Shown piece after piece: positions 8,157-25,268 of a DNA stretch of 27,937 nucleotides. Location: IMG/VR virus record IMGVR_UViG_3300042379_000273, positions 1 to 27,937 of that record. One strand, 5' to 3'. The DNA comes from a virus. The position numbers and the translations under genes are program-made. How positions within the stretch are numbered: the stretch's first letter is position 1; each line of letters starts with the position of its first letter. The notes under the pieces were generated by a model that worked only from the letters and a program-made list of their open reading frames with translations, was not told the origin of the DNA and searched no databases.

Positions 8157-8994
8157 TTATACGCAAGGGCTACATTCCGTCTCCGTTTGACAATTTTGTG
8201 TTCAAAAAAAACAAAAAATTTCCCCACGCTTCTAAAATAATGTAGTTTGCATTTGTTCATTTTCTAATCGTTTTAATCCTGCTAAATAATACTCTTCTAT
8301 TAATTCGCACCCAACAAGGCTAAATTTTTCTCTGTGGCAAGCAATCGCAATCGAAGCACTTCCCAAATGAGTATCTAAAATCAAATCACCTTCCTTTGCG
8401 TAGTTTTGTAAAATCCATTGGTATAGTTGTATTGGCTTTTCAGTTGGATGTATTCGTTCTTGCTTGTTACCCATATTTTGCTGTATAAATCCGTGCCAAG
8501 TCCATTTAAAAGTCCTTACAGCAGTATTAAACGAAGTCCAAGCAAGTTCAGCATCAGCAAAATATCCGCCTACTTTGTTTTTATCCCATACAAGCCAACA
8601 ACTACTATTTTTGTTTATCCTTTCAATAAAGTGATTTGCACCCCAAACAATTTGATTTTTAGATACTCTTTGCAATTCATCAAAATAAGCCTTGTCAGGT
8701 GCTTTTTTATCCCAATCGTATTTAGTGTATTGCTTTGCCTTTCCTGCTCCGTCAATGCCTATTTTACCGCCATCCATATCAATTCCGTATGGTGGGTCAA
8801 CTATTGCTAAATCAAAATGTTTATCAGGGTATTTAGCCATAAGTTCCATATTGTCGCAATTAAATAATTCTATTTTCCCTTCGCTCATTTTTTGTTTTTT
8901 TTGTTTGTGCTACTAATTAAGTTCCTACTAAATAACCGCCCCAGCGTATAACAGCACCTATGCGCCATTAAAACGAGCGCATAGCTGCAAAACG
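8157..8994. mobile_element. Possible integron-type gene cassette carrying the methyltransferase
   Basis: The left edge carries GTTATACGC (8156-8164) and the right edge its exact reverse complement GCGTATAAC (8944-8952), followed by an imperfect hairpin and GTTATAAGC (8994-9002). This is the layout of an integrated cassette: the segment would start after G of G|TTATACGC and end at the G of G|TTATAAGC, and the circular form would rebuild a perfect R''/R' pair. The enclosed gene runs opposite to the usual cassette orientation, no integrase is visible, and GTTATAC/GTTATAA match GTTRRRY only partly. An 8-nt repeat AGCCATTA flanks the whole (8148-8155, 9000-9007). Confidence 0.35.
8232..8888 (-). 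CDS. DNA methyltransferase, beta-class amino-methyltransferase (N6-adenine or N4-cytosine)
   Basis: 218 residues. Motif IV is DPPY at 31-34 (VDPPYGIDMDGG) and motif I comes late, DTHLGSASIAIA from 172, followed by VGCELIEEYY. The order IV then I is the beta class. Motif I departs from the usual DPFxGSG: Thr-His replace Pro-Phe, and Ala replaces the last Gly. The family transfers a methyl group from S-adenosylmethionine to the exocyclic amino group of A or C. No restriction enzyme lies next to it, so it is probably an orphan enzyme protecting the phage DNA. It heads a minus-strand unit reading from a promoter near 9024. Confidence 0.88.
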   Translation of the reverse strand: MSEGKIELFNCDNMELMAKYPDKHFDLAIVDPPYGIDMDGGKIGIDGAGKAKQYTKYDWDKKAPDKAYFDELQRVSKNQIVWGANHFIERINKNSSCWLVWDKNKVGGYFADAELAWTSFNTAVRTFKWTWHGFIQQNMGNKQERIHPTEKPIQLYQWILQNYAKEGDLILDTHLGSASIAIACHREKFSLVGCELIEEYYLAGLKRLENEQMQTTLF

Positions 8995-10042: not shown

Positions 10043-10999
10043 ATGGAAGTAAATAAAATATATCAAGAACCTTGTTTAGATACTTTAAGAAAAATGCCTG
10101 ATAATTTTTTGGATTGTGTAATTACTTCTCCACCTTATTGGCAACTTAGAGATTATGGATATGAAGGACAATGGGGATTAGAACCTACATTTGATTTATA
10201 CTTAGAACATCTTTGGGAAATGATGGACGAAATTAAAAGAGTTTTAAAACCTAGTGGTACTGCTTGGATAAACCTTGGAGATACATATAGTCGTAAGGGT
10301 GGCAAAAGCATAGGTAAATTACAACCTAATGCTTTGTTAGGTAATACAAAAAAAGGTGTTAGAGGAGGAAATTGTAATGGTGTTGAAGGAATAATGGACA
10401 AATGTTTACTACTTATTCCTCATAGATTTGCTATTGGTTGTATTGATAGAGGTTGGATAGTTAGAAATGATATTATTTGGGCAAAGCGAAATGGTATGCC
10501 AGAAAGTATTACGGATAGATTTTCTAAAAAGCACGAATACTTTTTTTTAATGTCTAAAAGTGAAAAGTACTTTTTTGATTTAGATGCTATTAGAGATAAA
10601 CATATTCACGCAAACGACAAAAGAAATGATGGAAATAGACACGAATACAGAGATGGAACTAAAAGTATGAATAACCAAATGTTAGCAACAAATGCAGTTT
10701 CATTTAATCCATTAGGTAAAAATCCAGGTTCAGTTTCAGATTTTTGGGATATTCCAACAAAAGGTAGTACAAGCGAACATTACGCAAGTTATAATGATAA
10801 TTTGCTAAAAAAGCCAATGTTAGCTGGATGCCCTGTTGGTGGATTAGTTTACGATCCGTTTATGGGTACAGGAAGTACGGCGGAAGTAGCAATAAGAACA
10901 AAAAGAAATTTCATAGGAAGTGAAATGAGTTTAGATTACATTAATATTTCAGAAAAAAGATTAGAGCCATTTTTAAAAAGTTATACATTAGATATTTAA
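10043..10999 (+). CDS. DNA methyltransferase, beta class with SPPY motif
   Basis: 318 residues. Motif IV is TSPPYWQLRDYG (SPPY at 29-32) and motif I is DPFMGTGSTAEVA from 271. Between them lie VLKPSGTAWINLGDTY and a target-recognition region. SPPY is found mostly in N4-cytosine enzymes, while DPPY is commoner in N6-adenine ones, so cytosine-N4 is slightly favoured. The order IV then I is again the beta class. It differs strongly from the first methyltransferase at 8232, so the two probably protect different sites. No endonuclease partner is adjacent. Its codon use is AT-rich like its neighbours. Confidence 0.9.
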   Translation: MEVNKIYQEPCLDTLRKMPDNFLDCVITSPPYWQLRDYGYEGQWGLEPTFDLYLEHLWEMMDEIKRVLKPSGTAWINLGDTYSRKGGKSIGKLQPNALLGNTKKGVRGGNCNGVEGIMDKCLLLIPHRFAIGCIDRGWIVRNDIIWAKRNGMPESITDRFSKKHEYFFLMSKSEKYFFDLDAIRDKHIHANDKRNDGNRHEYRDGTKSMNNQMLATNAVSFNPLGKNPGSVSDFWDIPTKGSTSEHYASYNDNLLKKPMLAGCPVGGLVYDPFMGTGSTAEVAIRTKRNFIGSEMSLDYINISEKRLEPFLKSYTLDI

Positions 11000-11019: not shown

Positions 11020-11098
11020 CAATCTGGTCAGAGATTGAAACAAAACTATAATCTATCCTGACTTTGCCTATGCTGACCCGTAGGATTTAAGTTAGGAT
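11020..11098 (+). promoter_or_regulatory. Structured 5' leader RNA with possible loop-loop pairing
   Basis: CAATCT (11020-11025) and AGATTG (11032-11037) form a perfect 6-bp hairpin with loop GGTCAG. That loop is exactly complementary to CTGACC at 11073-11078, which lies in the loop of a second possible hairpin ATCCT (11055-11059)/AGGAT (11082-11086). A second AGGAT at 11094-11098 is an alternative partner for ATCCT. Kissing loops or a switch between pairings are both possible. It precedes the gene at 11116. Confidence 0.45.
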
Positions 11099-11115: not shown

Positions 11116-11559
11116 ATGAGTAAAGATTTATTTAGTTTAATGCGACAACAAGAGATTGACACGCAAAACTTTTTACCAAACAAGCTAGAAATTCAGCTAT
11201 CTGCACGAACATTCATCAAAGAAGTGTTAGATGCTGGAGAGATTGACAAAATTGAACTACTAGCACAAGCCAAACGAATGGGCGAAGCCTTAGACGTTAT
11301 TAATGCAGAACTGATAAAAGTTCTCCCACAAGAGAACTTTGAGGGTTACGGACTTAAAGGTACATTCCGAAGCGGAGGGGAAACAATTAACTTTAAAGAT
11401 TGCGAAGTTTGGAGCGACATCAACCGAGAACTTAAAGAACGTGAGGACTTATTAAAGTTAGCTTTGAAATCGCAAAACGAAATATACGATGCGGCAGGAG
11501 TTCAAGTGCCTAAAGTATCAACAACGCCACGCAAAAGTAGTATGGCTATTTCATTTTAA
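11116..11559 (+). CDS. Unknown 147-aa protein of the replication region
   Basis: ATG in the context AAACATTATG. The protein is charged and mostly helical: LFSLMRQQEIDTQNFLP, then a helix with KRMGEALDVINAELIKVLP (about 58-77), a Gly-rich turn (FEGYGLKGTFRSGGE) and another helix (WSDINRELKEREDLLKLALK). It ends in a basic Ser/Thr tail (TTPRKSSMAISF). It lies directly upstream of the SSB-like gene and has its own promoter, so a role in early DNA metabolism is likely by position. No family recognised. Confidence 0.75.
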   Translation: MSKDLFSLMRQQEIDTQNFLPNKLEIQLSARTFIKEVLDAGEIDKIELLAQAKRMGEALDVINAELIKVLPQENFEGYGLKGTFRSGGETINFKDCEVWSDINRELKEREDLLKLALKSQNEIYDAAGVQVPKVSTTPRKSSMAISF

Positions 11560-11638: not shown

Positions 11639-12325
11639 ATGAGTACTTCAAACAGACGTGCAGCATTTGCACAACCACAAAGCAATCCAGCCACTAAATT
11701 TATCGAGTGGAAATCAAACGACAAGTGTTTTAATTACTACGACAAGGATGCACAAAAGAATGTAGAAATACCTTTGCCGTTTAAGTTCTTAGTCCTAGAC
11801 GAGCTACATTGTATTAAAGGTTGGAATGATGCTTCCTCAAGTAACATCTATTCCAACGAAGTGAAGTTCATTTCAAAAGAAGTAATGACAGTTAAACCTT
11901 TTAAGGGTAACGAAATTGCAAAAGGGTATTACAAAGACATTAAAGAGAAAGTTGTAGCTGCTGGAGGGCATTACACCAAGTCTATTTATGTAATGCTCGA
12001 AGATGGTTCACTAGCAAACATATCGCTAAAAGGTTCTGGCGTTCAAAAGTGGGGCGACTTCACACAAAAGACACGAAACAGACTTGCAGATGAGTGGGTA
12101 ATAGTTGCATCAGCAGAAGATGGTAAGAAAGGCGCAGTTAAGTTTTCAACACCAGGTTTCTCTTTTGCAAACTCTATTTCAGATGAAGAAGCTAATATGG
12201 CAGACGAAGCGTTCAACATATTAGAATCGTATCTTAAAACATACTTAGCAAAAGCAGAGCCATCTATTGTTGAAGAAGAAGAAGATGACTTCGAGCCAAC
12301 AATGGATGATGGATTAGACTTCTAA
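11639..12325 (+). CDS. Putative single-stranded DNA-binding protein
   Basis: 228 residues. A soluble beta-rich body (IPLPFKFLVLDELHCIKGW, then SIYVMLEDGSLANISLKG and WVIVASAEDGKKGAVKFSTP) is followed by a linker and a strongly acidic C-terminal tail ending EEEEDDFEP...DDGLDF. An acidic tail ending in Asp-x-Asp-Phe-like residues is the hallmark of SSB proteins, which use it to recruit replication and recombination partners. The place between a leader-regulated early gene and the origin-like array, upstream of primase and helicase, supports this. The body does not show an obvious OB-fold signature by eye, so the assignment stays provisional. Confidence 0.6.
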   Translation: MSTSNRRAAFAQPQSNPATKFIEWKSNDKCFNYYDKDAQKNVEIPLPFKFLVLDELHCIKGWNDASSSNIYSNEVKFISKEVMTVKPFKGNEIAKGYYKDIKEKVVAAGGHYTKSIYVMLEDGSLANISLKGSGVQKWGDFTQKTRNRLADEWVIVASAEDGKKGAVKFSTPGFSFANSISDEEANMADEAFNILESYLKTYLAKAEPSIVEEEEDDFEPTMDDGLDF

Positions 12326-12376: not shown

Positions 12377-12617
12377 ATTTTAAACCTAGTTTAAAATTTT
12401 AAAGTATTTTAAACCAATAAAACGCTGTCAAGCCTTATAAACATTGAGTTTTAAACCAGCTGGTTTAAAATTTGAATAAAATTTTATTTTTTTTTATTTT
12501 ACAAAAATTATTTTTTACCTAAAAATTTTTAAACTTGGTTTAAAAACAGCGTTAAGCCTTACTATCATTGAAAAGGTTGGTTTAAAATTAGTTGAAAATT
12601 TTAAACTAGGTTTAAAA
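12377..12617. repeat. Array of TTTTAAAC/GTTTAAAA palindromes and direct repeats, candidate replication origin or operator region
   Basis: This fills most of the 375-nt gene-free gap 12326-12700. Four palindromes occur: 12377-12397 (9-bp arms around CTA), 12449-12470 (perfect, centred on AGCT), 12526-12546 (9-bp arms around TTG) and 12599-12617 (8-bp arms around TAG). Lone half-sites TTTTAAACC and GGTTTAAAA lie near 12407-12415 and 12579-12587. Two 30-nt direct repeats, 12419-12448 and 12543-12572, share 22 positions including AAGCCTTA and CATTGA. A very AT-rich 55-nt block (12471-12525) lies in the middle. Order: palindrome, half-site, repeat, palindrome, AT block, palindrome, repeat, half-site, palindrome. 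This resembles an iteron origin with an unwinding element next to the primase gene; an autoregulatory operator array for the HTH gene is the alternative. Confidence 0.75.
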
Positions 12618-12679: not shown

Positions 12680-12687
12680 TATATTTG
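12680..12687 (+). promoter_or_regulatory. Promoter -7 element (TATATTTG) of the HTH gene
   Basis: Exact TAnnTTTG match, 13 nt before the ATG at 12701 and 63 nt after the last palindrome of the array. The leader would be very short or absent. Its closeness to the palindromes makes autoregulation plausible. Confidence 0.65.
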
Positions 12688-12700
12688 TAAAAAAATAATT

Positions 12701-12931
12701 ATGAAAACAAAAGAAAAAATTATTGAGTTGTCTTTGAAAGGAATACCAGTTGATGAAATAGCTGATGAATTAAATGTTTCAATTCAAAATGTCTATAAGC
12801 ATTTAAGAGCTGATAAAATAGAAAAGCAAGAAAGAAAAGATAGATTAGAAAAAAATATTAATCTTACTGATTTAGATATTGAAAGATTATCTGAAAGAAT
12901 TTATTTAAAGATATTAGCGTATATTAATTAA
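12701..12931 (+). CDS. Small helix-turn-helix DNA-binding protein
   Basis: 76 residues. Residues about 4-36 are a helix-turn-helix of the resolvase/sigma-region-4 style: IIELSLKGIPVDEIADELNV, then SIQNVYKHLRADK, with the recognition helix at about 26-36. A charged helix with KIEKQERKDRLEK and a leucine-rich tail (LTDLDIERLSERIYLKILAY) follow, possibly for dimerisation. It lies between the repeat array and the primase gene, so it may be the array-binding initiator or repressor. That is inference from position; the fold call rests on the HTH pattern. Confidence 0.75.
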   Translation: MKTKEKIIELSLKGIPVDEIADELNVSIQNVYKHLRADKIEKQERKDRLEKNINLTDLDIERLSERIYLKILAYIN

Positions 12932-12938
12932 ATATTAT

Positions 12939-12946
12939 TACATTTG
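12939..12946 (+). promoter_or_regulatory. Promoter -7 element (TACATTTG) overlapped by an inverted repeat
   Basis: TACATTTG matches TAnnTTTG. The perfect 6-bp inverted repeat ATTACA (12937-12942)/TGTAAT (12951-12956) overlaps it, as an operator would. Transcription from here would enter the leader at 12961-13042 before the primase ATG at 13057. Confidence 0.6.
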
Positions 12947-12960
12947 CCTTTGTAATGTTC

Positions 12961-13042
12961 TGGTGGGTTCGTTACATCTAAAGAATTATTAAAATGTCCT
13001 TTAGGGAGTAGTTGCCACCACAACGAAACCTAAAGGATTTTT
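12961..13042 (+). promoter_or_regulatory. Primase leader RNA: attenuator-like terminator with pseudoknot potential
   Basis: TCCTTTAGG (12997-13005) and CCTAAAGGA (13029-13037) form a perfect 9-bp stem followed by TTTTT, an intrinsic terminator inside the 5' leader of the primase. Its top holds GTTG (13011-13014)/CAAC (13021-13024) with the loop CCACCA, exactly complementary to TGGTGG at 12961-12966. The internal loop has AGTA (13007-13010) opposite GAA (13025-13027), the sequence pair of the bulged-G (sarcin-ricin type) motif. GGTTCGTT (12966-12973) can instead pair, with one bulge, with AACGAAACC (13022-13030), which would oppose the terminator. A cis-regulatory switch is a reasonable reading. 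Confidence 0.55.
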
Positions 13043-13056
13043 ACTTTTAAATATTT

Positions 13057-15330
13057 ATGGAAGAATCTAAATTAAAAAAGTTCTACGAAAACTTTTCTTT
13101 AATAACTGTATCAGATAATAAAGTTCCAAACTTCTCTTGGAAACATTGTCAATCTGAAAAACAAAGTTGGGATGGCTTTTACAAAAACTTTAATTACAAA
13201 GGCGGTATATTTAAAAAGGATGGAACTGAGATACCAGCAACTGATAACTTTGGCATTGTTACAGGTTTTGAATACTTAGAGTGTATTGATGTTGATCTTA
13301 AGGTTTTTTCAACTGCAAAGGAGCAAATAGCTTTTTGGGATGAGTATATTACTTATTTAAAAGATAATATATTGGATTTTGAAGATAAGGTTATAGTTTA
13401 CAAAACTAAAAACGCTGGATTTCATTTGCTTTACAAATCGAAAAGAGTTGATGGTAATTTAAAATTAGCGAAATTAAAAGGACATAAAGAAGCCGTTATT
13501 GAAACAAGAGGGATAGGCGGTTATATTTTTACATATCCTGACAATAAGGTTTATAAGAAAAGTTACCACGATATTGATTTTATATCTGATGAAGATAGAG
13601 AAATTATTATTAGCTTCTCTAAAATGTACGATTATCAAGAGCCTATAAAAGAAGTAGCTGAAACAAAGAAGATAAAAAGTGAATATGTTGAGGGAGAGAT
13701 ACTGCCTTGGGATGACTTTAACGATAAGAATAGTATTTTTGATATTGTAGCTTCTGAATTTACAATAGTTGGAAATCATAAGGATAAATACATAATAAAA
13801 AGACAAGGAGGGACTTCTCCACATAGCGGTTACATTTATAAGAATGACAACATAATGTTTCTTTTTTCAACTGGCACAATATACCCGCACGAAAAACCAA
13901 TATCTCCTTACACAGCTTACACTTGGCAAAACTTTAATGGAGATTATAGTGCTTCAGCTAAACAAATTTACATTGATGGTTATGGAAGTAGAAAAGTAAA
14001 ACAAGAGTTAGAGCCTAAAGAAAAGATTGTAATTAACAAAACAGACTTAGAGTTCCCTATTGATATATTTCCAAAGTCAATTCAATCTTATATTTTAGAG
14101 TGCAATCAAACATTAGATAGCTCAGTCGATTATATGAGCTGTTCCTTGCTGTGGCTTACTTCTTTGAGTATTGGTAACAGTATGCAAATTGAAGTAAAAA
14201 GAGGTTGGACTGAAAACGCTACAATTTGGGTTGCTATTGTTGGTAAAGCTGGTATAGGTAAAACACCGTCTATATCAAATATTATATTTCCTTTAGAGAA
14301 AATTAATAATAAGGAAATTTCTAACTACATTAAAGAGTACGAAAAGTATGAGTACTACAACGGACTTTCAAAAAAAGACCAAGAAGAATGTATGGAGGTA
14401 AGTAAGCCAATAAAAAAACAATTTATTGCAAATGATATTACTATTGAAGCCTTAGTTGATTTGCACCAACAAAGTGATAATTCAGTTGGAGTTTTTAAAG
14501 ATGAACTAGCGGGATGGTTTAAGGATATGAATAAATATAAACCTGGTTCTGACTTAGAGTTTTGGCTTTCAACCTGGAGTGGTAAGTCAGTTAATCTAAA
14601 TAGACTTACAAGAGCTGGTTCATTTGTAGCAAAGCCTTTAATCCCAGTACTAGGAGGAATACAACCTAGTATTTTTAATTCATTTTATACTGATGACAAC
14701 AAGGATAATGGTTTTATGGACAGAATGCTACTATCTTTTCCTGATTTAAGCATTGAAAGTTATAATGATAATGAAATGAATTATGATACTATTCAATGGT
14801 ACAGCGATACAATTATCGCTTTTTATGACACGATTAGAAATAAAGTTATACAAAGGGATCAAGATGGAGCGATAACACCTAAAATTGTTAAATTCAATGC
14901 TGAATCGAAATTAGAATGGATGCGTATTTTTAACGAGATAACAGAAATTCAAAATAGCGAAAGCGAAAATGAATACATGAAATCAATGTTGCCAAAGCAA
15001 AAGTCTTATATTCCTAGATTTGCTCTTTTAATACACGTTTTTGGAGCAATCGGACAAACAAATTATAATTTAGATGAAATATCTGTTGAATCAATTTTAA
15101 AGGCAGAAAAGCTATCTAAATACTTTATTGCTATGGCTAAGAAAGTTAAAGTTGATAGTATTGAAGTTTCAGAGATTAGAAAGGTTTTAAAAGTTAATGA
15201 TGGAAAAACAAACAAAGATAAATTTACAGCTCTTTATAAGTCAAACCCAGCATTAAATAAAAAAGAAGTTTCAGAGCAATTAGGAGTTTCTTTACAAATG
15301 ATTTACAAATATGTTAAAGAGCTAGAATAA
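13057..15330 (+). CDS. Primase-polymerase (AEP type) fused to DUF3987-like P-loop ATPase
   Basis: 757 residues. The N-terminal ~190 residues look like a bifunctional primase/polymerase domain: metal-binding D78-x-D80 in ECIDVDLKV, H123 in GFHLLY and the segment E149-T-R-G-I-G-G-Y with FTYP. The central region (about 330-640) resembles DUF3987, with Walker A GKAGIGKT at 396-403 and a Walker B-like VGVFKDELAGW (D482, E483). The C-terminus (about 730-757) is a small HTH (KKEVSEQLGVSLQMIYKYV). Such fusions prime and unwind phage DNA. It is preceded by a leader with a terminator hairpin and ends one base into the next gene (TAATG). Confidence 0.87.
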   Translation: MEESKLKKFYENFSLITVSDNKVPNFSWKHCQSEKQSWDGFYKNFNYKGGIFKKDGTEIPATDNFGIVTGFEYLECIDVDLKVFSTAKEQIAFWDEYITYLKDNILDFEDKVIVYKTKNAGFHLLYKSKRVDGNLKLAKLKGHKEAVIETRGIGGYIFTYPDNKVYKKSYHDIDFISDEDREIIISFSKMYDYQEPIKEVAETKKIKSEYVEGEILPWDDFNDKNSIFDIVASEFTIVGNHKDKYIIKRQGGTSPHSGYIYKNDNIMFLFSTGTIYPHEKPISPYTAYTWQNFNGDYSASAKQIYIDGYGSRKVKQELEPKEKIVINKTDLEFPIDIFPKSIQSYILECNQTLDSSVDYMSCSLLWLTSLSIGNSMQIEVKRGWTENATIWVAIVGKAGIGKTPSISNIIFPLEKINNKEISNYIKEYEKYEYYNGLSKKDQEECMEVSKPIKKQFIANDITIEALVDLHQQSDNSVGVFKDELAGWFKDMNKYKPGSDLEFWLSTWSGKSVNLNRLTRAGSFVAKPLIPVLGGIQPSIFNSFYTDDNKDNGFMDRMLLSFPDLSIESYNDNEMNYDTIQWYSDTIIAFYDTIRNKVIQRDQDGAITPKIVKFNAESKLEWMRIFNEITEIQNSESENEYMKSMLPKQKSYIPRFALLIHVFGAIGQTNYNLDEISVESILKAEKLSKYFIAMAKKVKVDSIEVSEIRKVLKVNDGKTNKDKFTALYKSNPALNKKEVSEQLGVSLQMIYKYVKELE

Positions 15331-22934: not shown

Positions 22935-23486
22935 ATGGGAAAGAAAAAGGAAATACAAGTAACGTCCGCAGGATCTACATTGACAACACAACCCGAAAGG
23001 AGAGGAACGCCGGAACACCTCCAGACACAACAAAACCAAGCCTTGCAGATCATCGACTTAATAGGTAACAAAGGACTGCCAATGGTGAAAGCAGCTAAGG
23101 AAGTAGGAATGAACCAAACAACGTTCCTTGACTATATCGAGAAAGATAATCGACTAATCGAATTATACGCGAGAGCAATCGACCAGAGGAACGATCTTAA
23201 AGCGGAACGTATCATAAAGCTAGCAAACAAACGTAGTTTAGATATGTACGTAGATCAAAACGGACACCTCCGCCCAAACCCCGTCGCAGTACAAAGGGAT
23301 CGTTTAATTATCGACTCTGAAAAGTGGTTATTATCTAAGTTAGCGCCTAAGAAATACGGTGACCGCATACAGATTGACGCGGAAGTAAAGCACACCGCGC
23401 CTCTATCAATTGACCAAGTGAATGATATATTAAAGCAGCTTGATAGCAATACGATAGACATAACACCAGAAGCGGAAGCGGAATAG
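22935..23486 (+). CDS. terS: Terminase small subunit
   Basis: 183 residues. After a disordered start, residues about 35-75 form an HTH-like DNA-recognition region (QALQIIDLIGNKGLPMVKAA, then KEVGMNQTTFLDYIEKDN). A helical oligomerisation part (DLKAERIIKLANK) and the family-typical stretch RDRLIIDSEKWLLSKLAPKK followed by YGDR complete it. TerS binds the packaging site and loads the large subunit. It ends in an EAEAE run at a TAG; immediately behind, the +1 frame is open for 54 codons and equally Ala/Glu-rich. Codon use is richer in C and G than in most of the window. Confidence 0.9.
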   Translation: MGKKKEIQVTSAGSTLTTQPERRGTPEHLQTQQNQALQIIDLIGNKGLPMVKAAKEVGMNQTTFLDYIEKDNRLIELYARAIDQRNDLKAERIIKLANKRSLDMYVDQNGHLRPNPVAVQRDRLIIDSEKWLLSKLAPKKYGDRIQIDAEVKHTAPLSIDQVNDILKQLDSNTIDITPEAEAE

Positions 23487-23649
23487 CGTTGCTGCTGGAG
23501 CGAGAGCCGTTAACGCTGCAACCGATGAAGCGAACCAACCCAGAGCGGGAGGCGTTGAGGCGATAGCAGCCAAAGCGGAGGCGGTTGAGGCGTTGGAACT
23601 TTTGAAAGCGAGAGGCGGGCGGGGATATAAACACCAAAATAATTTTTAG
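23485..23649 (+). other. Ala/Gly/Glu-rich +1-frame extension of terS (recoded or frameshifted C-terminus)
   Basis: From AGC at 23485 the +1 frame runs to TAG 23647-23649 without a stop and without any ATG, GTG or early TTG start. Its residues (SVAAGARAVNAATDEANQ, later AKAEAVEALELLKARGG and KHQNNF) continue the EAEAE character of the TerS end. It is the most GC-rich stretch of the window, explained by GCG, GGC and GCC codons. It is readable only as a fusion with TerS, by programmed +1 frameshift at GAA-TAG-C, by a recent single-base mutation or by a sequencing error in the GAAGCG repeat. The rest of the gap to 23810 holds only a promoter. Confidence 0.55.
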
Positions 23650-23683
23650 CAATTTTGAGCTATATCTTTTTTTACTTTTTCCA

Positions 23684-23713
23684 TTGTTATAACAAATATT
23701 ATTTTTATATTTG
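23684..23713 (+). promoter_or_regulatory. Promoter of the large terminase gene with an overlapping palindrome
   Basis: TATATTTG (23706-23713) with TTG at 23684-23686 as -33, spaced by 19 nt: the best two-part Bacteroidota promoter in the window. The perfect 12-nt palindrome TTGTTATAACAA (23684-23695) covers the -33 element, so a repressor or activator site is plausible. The leader to the ATG at 23811 is about 90 nt and T-rich. Confidence 0.7.
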
Positions 23714-23810
23714 CACTTTAACTTTACTAATAATAGTAAGGGAATATTTCTATTGAGTAAATTGGTCTTTTTAAATTTTTTTTTTATAAATTTACACCAA
23801 ATATTTTTTT

Positions 23811-25268
23811 ATGCTAAATGGTCTAAGTCCTTTACAAATACTGCAAGCTAGGTTAATGGGAGATAGTTTGGCTTTTACTAAGTATTTCTTCCAGAAACGG
23901 TTTAATAGGAGTTTTGTTGTAAATAGTCATCACGAGATTATTTGCAAGGCTATGGATAGAATATTGAGGGGAGAGTTAAAAAGGGTTTGTATAAGTATAG
24001 CACCGAGATATGGCAAGACTGAATTGGCTGTTAAGAATTTTATTGCATTGGGATTGGCACATAATCCAAGTAGTAAGTTTATTCATTTGAGTTATAGTGG
24101 TAGTTTGGCTGAGGACAATAGTGAGAGTGTAAGGGATTTTATTGATAGTGAGGATTATAGTGCTATATTCCCTTATGTTGAGTTAAGTAAGAGTAGTGCT
24201 AGTAAAAGTAAGTGGGCGACTACTGCGGGTGGTGGTGTTTATGCAACTGCGACTGGAGGACAGATTACAGGGTTTGGAGCTGGAGAGGTTGATAGGGATA
24301 TTTTGGGTGCGATGCCAGATGAGAAGAAGAATAGCTTTGCGGGTGCGATTATTATTGACGATGCGTTAAAGCCTGATGATGCGCTGAGTGATTTGAAAAG
24401 GCAGAGGGTTAATGAAAGGTTTGAGAATACGATAAGGTCGAGGACTAACAGTAGAGATACGCCTATTATAGTTATAGGGCAAAGATTGCACTCAAACGAT
24501 TTGATAGGGTATTTAAAGGAAACGGAGGAAGAAGCGTGGGAGTTTATAGATATTCCTTGTATTACGGTTGATAAGTTTGGAGTTGAACACGCCTTGTGGG
24601 AATTTAAGCAAACTTTGGCTGAATTGAACAATATTCGGCAAATTGACGAGAATGTATTTGAAACGCAGTACCAGCAGAACCCGCAGGACTTAAAAGGAAA
24701 GTTATTGCCGTTACAGAGTTTAAAGTTTTGGAATTTGGCTAATATTCCATTTGAGAGTATAGTTTGGAAGTTTGCGGTGGGCGATCCAGCGAATGTTGGT
24801 GGAGATTATTATTCTATTCCATTTATGCACGTTGCCATTATTGAGGGGAAGCTGTTATGTTTTGTAAAAGGGATAGTTCACAGTAAGGAGGGGATTGAGA
24901 TTGTGAATGATAGGATGATTGACAAGACTAGGGAGCATTTTATTGAGGAAGTGTTTTTGGAGGTTAACGGAATTGGGGCAGCAGCGTTTATGTTATTAAA
25001 GCGAGATTTGAGTAATACGACTAAAGTTAAGCCGTTTACGGTAACAATTCCAAAGGAGGCTAGGATATTGAGCAATAGTGAGTTTATACGAAATCATTTT
25101 GTTTTTGACGAGAGGTATAAGGAAGATCAAGAATATGCGAGATTTATCAATCACGTTACGGGTTACGATAGGGAAAGCAGTAATACGCATAAAAAGGATG
25201 CTATTGACAGTTTAGCAAGTGCAGCGAACATCTTAAAGATAAAATATAAGAATTTGTTATTTGGTTAA
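23811..25268 (+). CDS. terL: Terminase large subunit (ATPase and nuclease)
   Basis: 485 residues. The ATPase domain has Walker A APRYGKT at 64-70 and Walker B GAIIIDDALK (D183, D184), with a coupling-motif-like region around VIGQRLHSND. The RNaseH-like nuclease domain has the expected acidic residues: D325 in AVGDPANVGGDYY, E384 in VFLEVNG and D463/D466 in KKDAIDSLA. It is the motor that translocates DNA into the prohead and cuts concatemers. The start ATG is preceded by a T-rich leader rather than directly abutting terS. Codon use is T/G-rich, visibly different from terS. Confidence 0.95.
   Translation: MLNGLSPLQILQARLMGDSLAFTKYFFQKRFNRSFVVNSHHEIICKAMDRILRGELKRVCISIAPRYGKTELAVKNFIALGLAHNPSSKFIHLSYSGSLAEDNSESVRDFIDSEDYSAIFPYVELSKSSASKSKWATTAGGGVYATATGGQITGFGAGEVDRDILGAMPDEKKNSFAGAIIIDDALKPDDALSDLKRQRVNERFENTIRSRTNSRDTPIIVIGQRLHSNDLIGYLKETEEEAWEFIDIPCITVDKFGVEHALWEFKQTLAELNNIRQIDENVFETQYQQNPQDLKGKLLPLQSLKFWNLANIPFESIVWKFAVGDPANVGGDYYSIPFMHVAIIEGKLLCFVKGIVHSKEGIEIVNDRMIDKTREHFIEEVFLEVNGIGAAAFMLLKRDLSNTTKVKPFTVTIPKEARILSNSEFIRNHFVFDERYKEDQEYARFINHVTGYDRESSNTHKKDAIDSLASAANILKIKYKNLLFG

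Follow-up and report, generated by a model that had tools for sequence, protein, structure and literature searches.

The closest described counterparts of the locus reported here are the rep-ori regions of PICI/SaPI elements, in which two sets of short iterons flank an A/T-rich region beside the gene for a primase/helicase initiator that functions as a self-loading helicase (PMC6092414). The origin lies immediately 3' of the initiator gene, and the C-terminal domains of SaPI Rep and Cch2 are described as acting on their iterons (PMC7581432). In the P4 alpha protein, primase, helicase, and DNA-binding functions are joined in one multidomain protein that works on repeats through a C-terminal DNA-binding domain, and the primase is of the Toprim (DnaG/bacterial) type (PMC4234260). 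The pRN1 protein ORF904 also unites a PrimPol domain, a helicase, and a C-terminal DNA-binding domain, with a helicase of superfamily 3 and a large stem-loop as the origin (PMC4234260).

Matched changes in initiators and origins have also been described. The DNA-binding domain of PLE RepA covaries with the origin and its specificities swap as modules, and the ICP1 protein Odn is a T5orf172 nuclease that borrows a DNA-binding domain of the RepA kind (PMC8263062). In geminiviruses, the specificity residues of Rep and the matching iterons recombine together, although these proteins are unrelated rolling-circle initiators of plant viruses (PMC2974675). Kazlauskas et al. predicted that DUF3987 is a helicase and that the C-terminal winged-helix domains of related primases recognize origins (PMC5862659).

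The DNA analyzed here, which we call the window, is a 27.9-kb virus record carrying a terminase-portal-protease module and a replication module. Genome collections label its relatives as metagenome-assembled genomes of Bacteroidota, including one Psychroflexus; a sixth match, which is partial, is labeled Sphingomonadaceae. The promoters in the window are of the TAnnTTTG type, which is the consensus of the Bacteroidota -7 promoter element, and the carrier of the array described below is very probably a tailed phage of Bacteroidota. Among cultivated phages, the INPHARED relatives are only partial matches that cover no more than 49% of the query. Genes for two N6/N4 DNA methyltransferases, on opposite strands at 8232-8888 (-) and 10043-10999 (+), lie on either side of the replication module.

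An earlier note on this DNA had proposed that a semi-symmetric group of repeats in a gap without genes is a phage replication origin, with an operator array as the main alternative. The gap is bounded by a phrog_6706 gene and a gene for a 76-aa HTH protein, and it holds the following elements, those without a strand being marked as such.

12378-12617, no strand: whole array, two half-arrays flanking an A/T core
12378-12396, no strand: palindrome 1, TTTTAAAC-CTA-GTTTAAAA, arms 3 nt apart
12407-12414, no strand: lone half-site TTTTAAAC
12419-12447, plus strand: spacer element copy 1 (CGCTGTCAAGCCTTATAAACATTGA), 29 nt
12449-12470, no strand: palindrome 2, TTTTAAAC-CAGCTG-GTTTAAAA, arms 6 nt apart
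12471-12525, no strand: A/T core with A or T at 51 of 55 positions, a probable DNA unwinding element
12527-12545, no strand: palindrome 3, TTTTAAAC-TTG-GTTTAAAA, arms 3 nt apart
12543-12571, plus strand: spacer element copy 2 (CAGCGTTAAGCCTTACTATCATTGA), 29 nt
12580-12587, no strand: lone half-site GTTTAAAA
12599-12617, no strand: palindrome 4, TTTTAAAC-TAG-GTTTAAAA, arms 3 nt apart

Every palindrome, half-site, repeat, and A/T block that had been claimed is present at its place, including the 55-nt block, which contains 4 G/C, and the wider spacing of the second palindrome relative to the other three. The direct repeats had been described as 30 nt long; they exist, but their length is 29 nt, with 76% identity. 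The 240-bp array matches its own reverse complement at 70% (E 8e-20), and its score under a local Markov model is approximately 1e-15. The sequence TTTTAAAC occurs 14 times in the window, where 8.5 copies are expected, and 10 of the 14 fall inside these 240 bp.

We consider it highly probable that this array is a replication origin and that the PrimPol-DUF3987 primase-helicase encoded next to it serves as the initiator. The relevant genes and signals of the neighborhood are as follows.

11639-12325: phrog_6706 gene with its own terminator, past which lie the array and then the 76-aa HTH gene
12680-12687, plus strand: -7 promoter element TATATTTG of the Bacteroidota type in front of the small HTH gene, matched to TAnnTTTG
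12701-12931, plus strand: 76-aa HTH protein, recognition helix VSIQNVYKHL
12939-12946, plus strand: second -7 element, TACATTTG, the promoter of the primase operon
12947-13037, plus strand: structured leader RNA with kissing loops and a terminator-like stem, which belongs to the primase promoter and not to the array
13057-15330, plus strand: PrimPol-DUF3987 primase-helicase, 757 aa, proposed origin-binding initiator
15211-15324, plus strand: its C-terminal HTH, aa 719-756, proposed origin-recognition domain
15292-15324, plus strand: recognition helix, aa 746-756, in which L746, Q747, and K751 covary with the arms
22935-25268: terminase genes, 10 kb from the array

In structure models, the N-terminal part of the primase-helicase matches a pRN1-type PrimPol (E 1e-5), the DUF3987 part weakly resembles an MCM-like AAA+ ring (E 3e-3), and the C-terminal 40 residues fold into a three-helix HTH at a pLDDT of about 85. 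DUF3987 (PF13148) matches 50 of 50 representatives above its cut-off, with the window protein at 167.6 bits against 27. HTH families match the C terminus in most members, and a C-terminal HTH is nearly universal. A sequence search of the PDB with the primase profile returned zero matches.

The window resembles PICI/SaPI in having two sets of sites around an A/T region beside a primase-helicase gene. Unlike those satellite islands, however, it has terminase, portal, and head protease genes of its own and therefore is not a satellite. The PrimPol fold of its protein differs from the Toprim primase of P4 alpha (PMC4234260), and no second P4-like repeat site (crr) was found in the window. The N-terminal fold is shared with pRN1 ORF904, whereas an iteron array stands in place of the stem-loop origin of that plasmid (PMC4234260).

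To examine related phages, viral contigs were scanned with the window primase as query, which yielded 402 related stretches and 125 distinct related primases, the relatives being metagenomic contigs throughout. Counted loci were required to have at least 1000 nt of upstream and 600 nt of downstream flank, leaving 101 distinct loci, and arrays were detected de novo, blind to protein sequence. The array adjoins the PrimPol-DUF3987 gene in all 101, upstream in 57 and downstream in 44, where it lies no more than about 300 nt past the primase stop codon. Of 2315 control segments taken from these loci, just 5 attain the array score of 1e-8. The earlier note had counted loss of the palindromes from relatives that keep the primase as evidence against an origin, and no such loss occurs among these flanked loci.

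The relatives carry the same array build in the same place with different arms, which by lineage are TTTAAAC, GTGTAAAG, GTGTAACAT, TGTGAAC, GTTGCAAC, and others. Arrays hold 6 to 18 sites, commonly laid out as two clusters with an A/T core between them that has a median relative position of 0.49 and is about 95% A+T. The primase is the sole constant neighbor gene. The nearly mirror-ordered arrangement pointed out in the earlier note exists in the window, but as a general rule it is ruled out, because the net orientation of half-sites is opposite in 15 loci, the same in 17, and undefined in 12. The change of arm spacing in palindrome 2 had been taken as a possible sign of different dimer geometries; relatives show spacers of 0, 1, 3, and 6 nt, a range that would suit HTH domains on flexible tethers better than fixed geometries. 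In one locus (L045), a 15-bp unit with AGCGTTGGATAAA is repeated in tandem about 20 times, about 1.1-0.8 kb upstream of the primase.

Among 50 non-redundant representatives, the similarity of sites is unrelated to the identity of primase bodies (rho 0.04). When body identity is accounted for, the sliding protein segment that best follows site similarity is aa 746-756 of 757 (partial r 0.43, against 0.27 for the next best elsewhere). Leave-one-out nearest-neighbor prediction with 10-aa segments reaches 0.75 for the recognition helix versus 0.57 +/- 0.03 for all segments (z 8.6). For pairs with body identity below 70%, those that agree at residues 746, 747, and 751 have a median site similarity of 0.86 versus 0.53 (p 2e-29).

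These correspondences can be read as a code in the register GTGTAAAC. Arg746 accompanies GTG, and Leu, Ile, or Val746 accompanies TTT or AAT. At the next position, Arg747 is found with a central G (GTGTGAA, TTGAAC), and Gln or small residues with A. Lys751 is found with a following C (..AAAC), Arg751 with ACAT, and Asn751 with neither, the Lys/Asn751 rule having been read by eye. For contingency tables, string rules were devised after the first set had been seen and before the second set was tabulated, and those for 746, 747, and Arg751 agree between the sets. Arg747 occurs with the central G in 10/10 cases of the first set and 16/19 of the second, and Arg751 with AC(A)T in 7/8 and 20/20. The half-site orientation of the near-palindromic TTTAAAC class is ambiguous from DNA alone and was assigned on the basis of the code; the main statistics use an orientation-free similarity and are independent of that choice.

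Helix and repeats change in step in hundreds of related phages, which makes the repeat sequence predictable from the protein. Four site predictions written in advance for distant genome-contig loci (TTTTAAAC, GTGTGAA, GTGTAACAT, and ATGT.ACAC) were all found. For a held-out set, a new scan used a primase of 44% identity as query and yielded 69 usable loci, of which L414 and L420 share contigs with earlier records. There, the mean similarity of helix-predicted sites was 0.76 versus 0.56 by chance (p 3e-12), and the array was present in 62 of 62 loci with enough flank.

Natural exchanges provide further examples. In L259 and L272, the primase bodies are 99% identical and the genes are 91-100% identical in DNA over 2.1 kb, yet the array upstream and the HTH at the 3' end have both been exchanged. 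Since a conserved gene sits between the array and the helix, which are 2 kb apart, linkage cannot explain this co-swap. Helix and downstream array are swapped between L103 and L108 and between L074 and L089, with conserved DNA on both flanks, an arrangement in which a single recombination event could exchange both. The pairs L297/L298 and L166/L029 are additional swaps with the array upstream.

The origin proposed in the earlier note is supported by the constant linkage to the primase, by arms that change within a fixed layout, and by the covariation of arms with the C-terminal HTH. A GC-skew switch, which that note had expected at an origin, was looked for at the array position in the window and is absent; skew follows gene strand. 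A search of the window for DnaA boxes found zero. Given the C-terminal HTH, the two clusters around an A/T core, and the lack of a DnaA box, the simplest model is a self-loading initiator. The covariation suggests that the C-terminal HTH would bind TTTTAAAC half-sites in both clusters, with the spacers perhaps serving as bending or accessory sites, IHF-like in many relatives and represented by the CCTTATAAACATTGA element in the window. The MCM-like AAA+ ring would then assemble on both clusters, load as a hexamer, and melt the central core, and the N-terminal primase would lay primers, with replication presumably starting at the array and DnaA not needed.

Several explanations compete with this model. 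An operator array, at which either the primase or the small HTH protein would regulate transcription while the origin lies elsewhere, could draw on the location of the window array about 60 bp upstream of a TAnnTTTG promoter and on the similar recognition helix of the small protein, yet it is improbable because 44 of the 101 loci have their array downstream of the primase gene. Past the stop codon, an array cannot act as operator for that gene. In addition, 6 to 18 sites around a core of constant position are too many for an operator, and the partner in covariation is a replicative primase-helicase. In upstream arrangements, autoregulation in addition to origin function is possible.

We give even less credence to an origin bound by the 76-aa HTH protein with the primase-helicase recruited second. 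The gene for this protein, which the earlier note had taken as the neighboring initiator, directly follows the array, and its helix SIQNVYK is of the same residue class as SLQMIYK of the primase. It is missing, however, from most relatives that keep the array, including the close relatives L004, L006-L008, and L010, which rules out the small HTH as a universal initiator, and in every lineage the site can be predicted from the primase HTH alone. The 76-aa protein may instead be an optional accessory that competes for the arms or regulates copy number. Upstream of the primase in L151, L186, and L034, an 83-aa protein with two HTHs whose helices belong to this class too (VSIQYVYR, VSVQYVYR) replaces the 76-aa gene.

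A packaging, partition, or recombination site linked by chance to the primase gene is the least credible reading. Repeat arrays mark centromeres and pac sites too, but the terminase genes are distant and arm specificity fits the DNA-binding domain of the primase-helicase.

In 13.8 kb of arrays there are 27 copies of the IHF consensus WATCAANNNNTTR, versus 1.7 +/- 1.2 in shuffles; outside the arrays, the loci have 0.17 per kb. The consensus is present in 18 of 50 representatives, in the interval between the outer cluster and the inner palindromes; no exact copy exists in the array or spacers of the window. Both 29-nt repeats of the window contain an element of approximately CGCTnnAA(C/G)CC(C/T)TATAAACATTGA, whose core CC[CT]TATAAA occurs at 0.80 per kb in arrays versus 0.027 per kb elsewhere. 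Since the element recurs in arrays with very different arms, the direct repeats are a genuine arm-independent element, possibly a host-factor site.

Genes for T5orf172/MUG113 (GIY-YIG) proteins lie beside arrays at L054:5608-6105, L036:2380-2961, L378:4369-4911, L056:8499-8981, L137:2274-2804, L385:4968-5564, and L368:5107-5769. Most of these proteins have an initiator-like C-terminal HTH with key residues unlike those of the carrier's own primase. By analogy with Odn, we tentatively raise the possibility, itself rather doubtful, that origin specificity is a compatibility system under diversifying pressure, as the swapped helix-array cassettes might indicate, and that these proteins would be nucleases aimed at origins, cleaving those of rival phages or satellites and sparing their own.

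PLE RepA differs in that it is not a primase-helicase and in that two specificity groups are described for it (PMC8263062), whereas many exist here; the nuclease function of the T5orf172 proteins here is putative. Compared with PICI/SaPI, where the C-terminal domain of the initiator binds the iterons, the covariation and blind predictions point likewise. The array is always adjacent to the initiator gene but, rather than being fixed at its 3' side, lies up- or downstream, and further differences are the PrimPol-DUF3987 fusion, the dozens of specificities with a residue-base code, and the IHF-like spacer sites. Although a PICI/SaPI-like layout is known, the initiator family, the specificity range, and the code look new; in the open-access literature searched, we found no description of a PrimPol-DUF3987 initiator family together with its origin that belongs to phages themselves and combines many specificities with a readable code. 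A large uncultivated family of Bacteroidota phages thereby gains a predicted origin, initiator, and sequence-readable recognition code, and the published prediction for DUF3987 and C-terminal domains (PMC5862659) becomes directly testable. Dozens of natural specificities and near-isogenic swaps offer built-in controls, and orthogonal initiator-origin pairs suit the study of replicon compatibility and phage-phage conflict.

The leader RNA of the primase follows its TAnnTTTG promoter and consists either of two hairpins whose loops are complementary (kissing) or of an H-type pseudoknot; a terminator-like stem and a T-run close it. No Rfam family matches it at threshold, and below threshold only chance-level matches appear. 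Such a leader follows 32 of 73 TAnnTTTG motifs located within 900 bp upstream of the primase versus 8 of 770 elsewhere. Among 7 close relatives, 9 pairs have changed on both sides, and 98.8% of cells are paired versus 37-59% when the structure is slid. A second pseudoknot-like leader, at 11026-11098 (+), follows TATATTTG and precedes a 147-aa gene at 11116.
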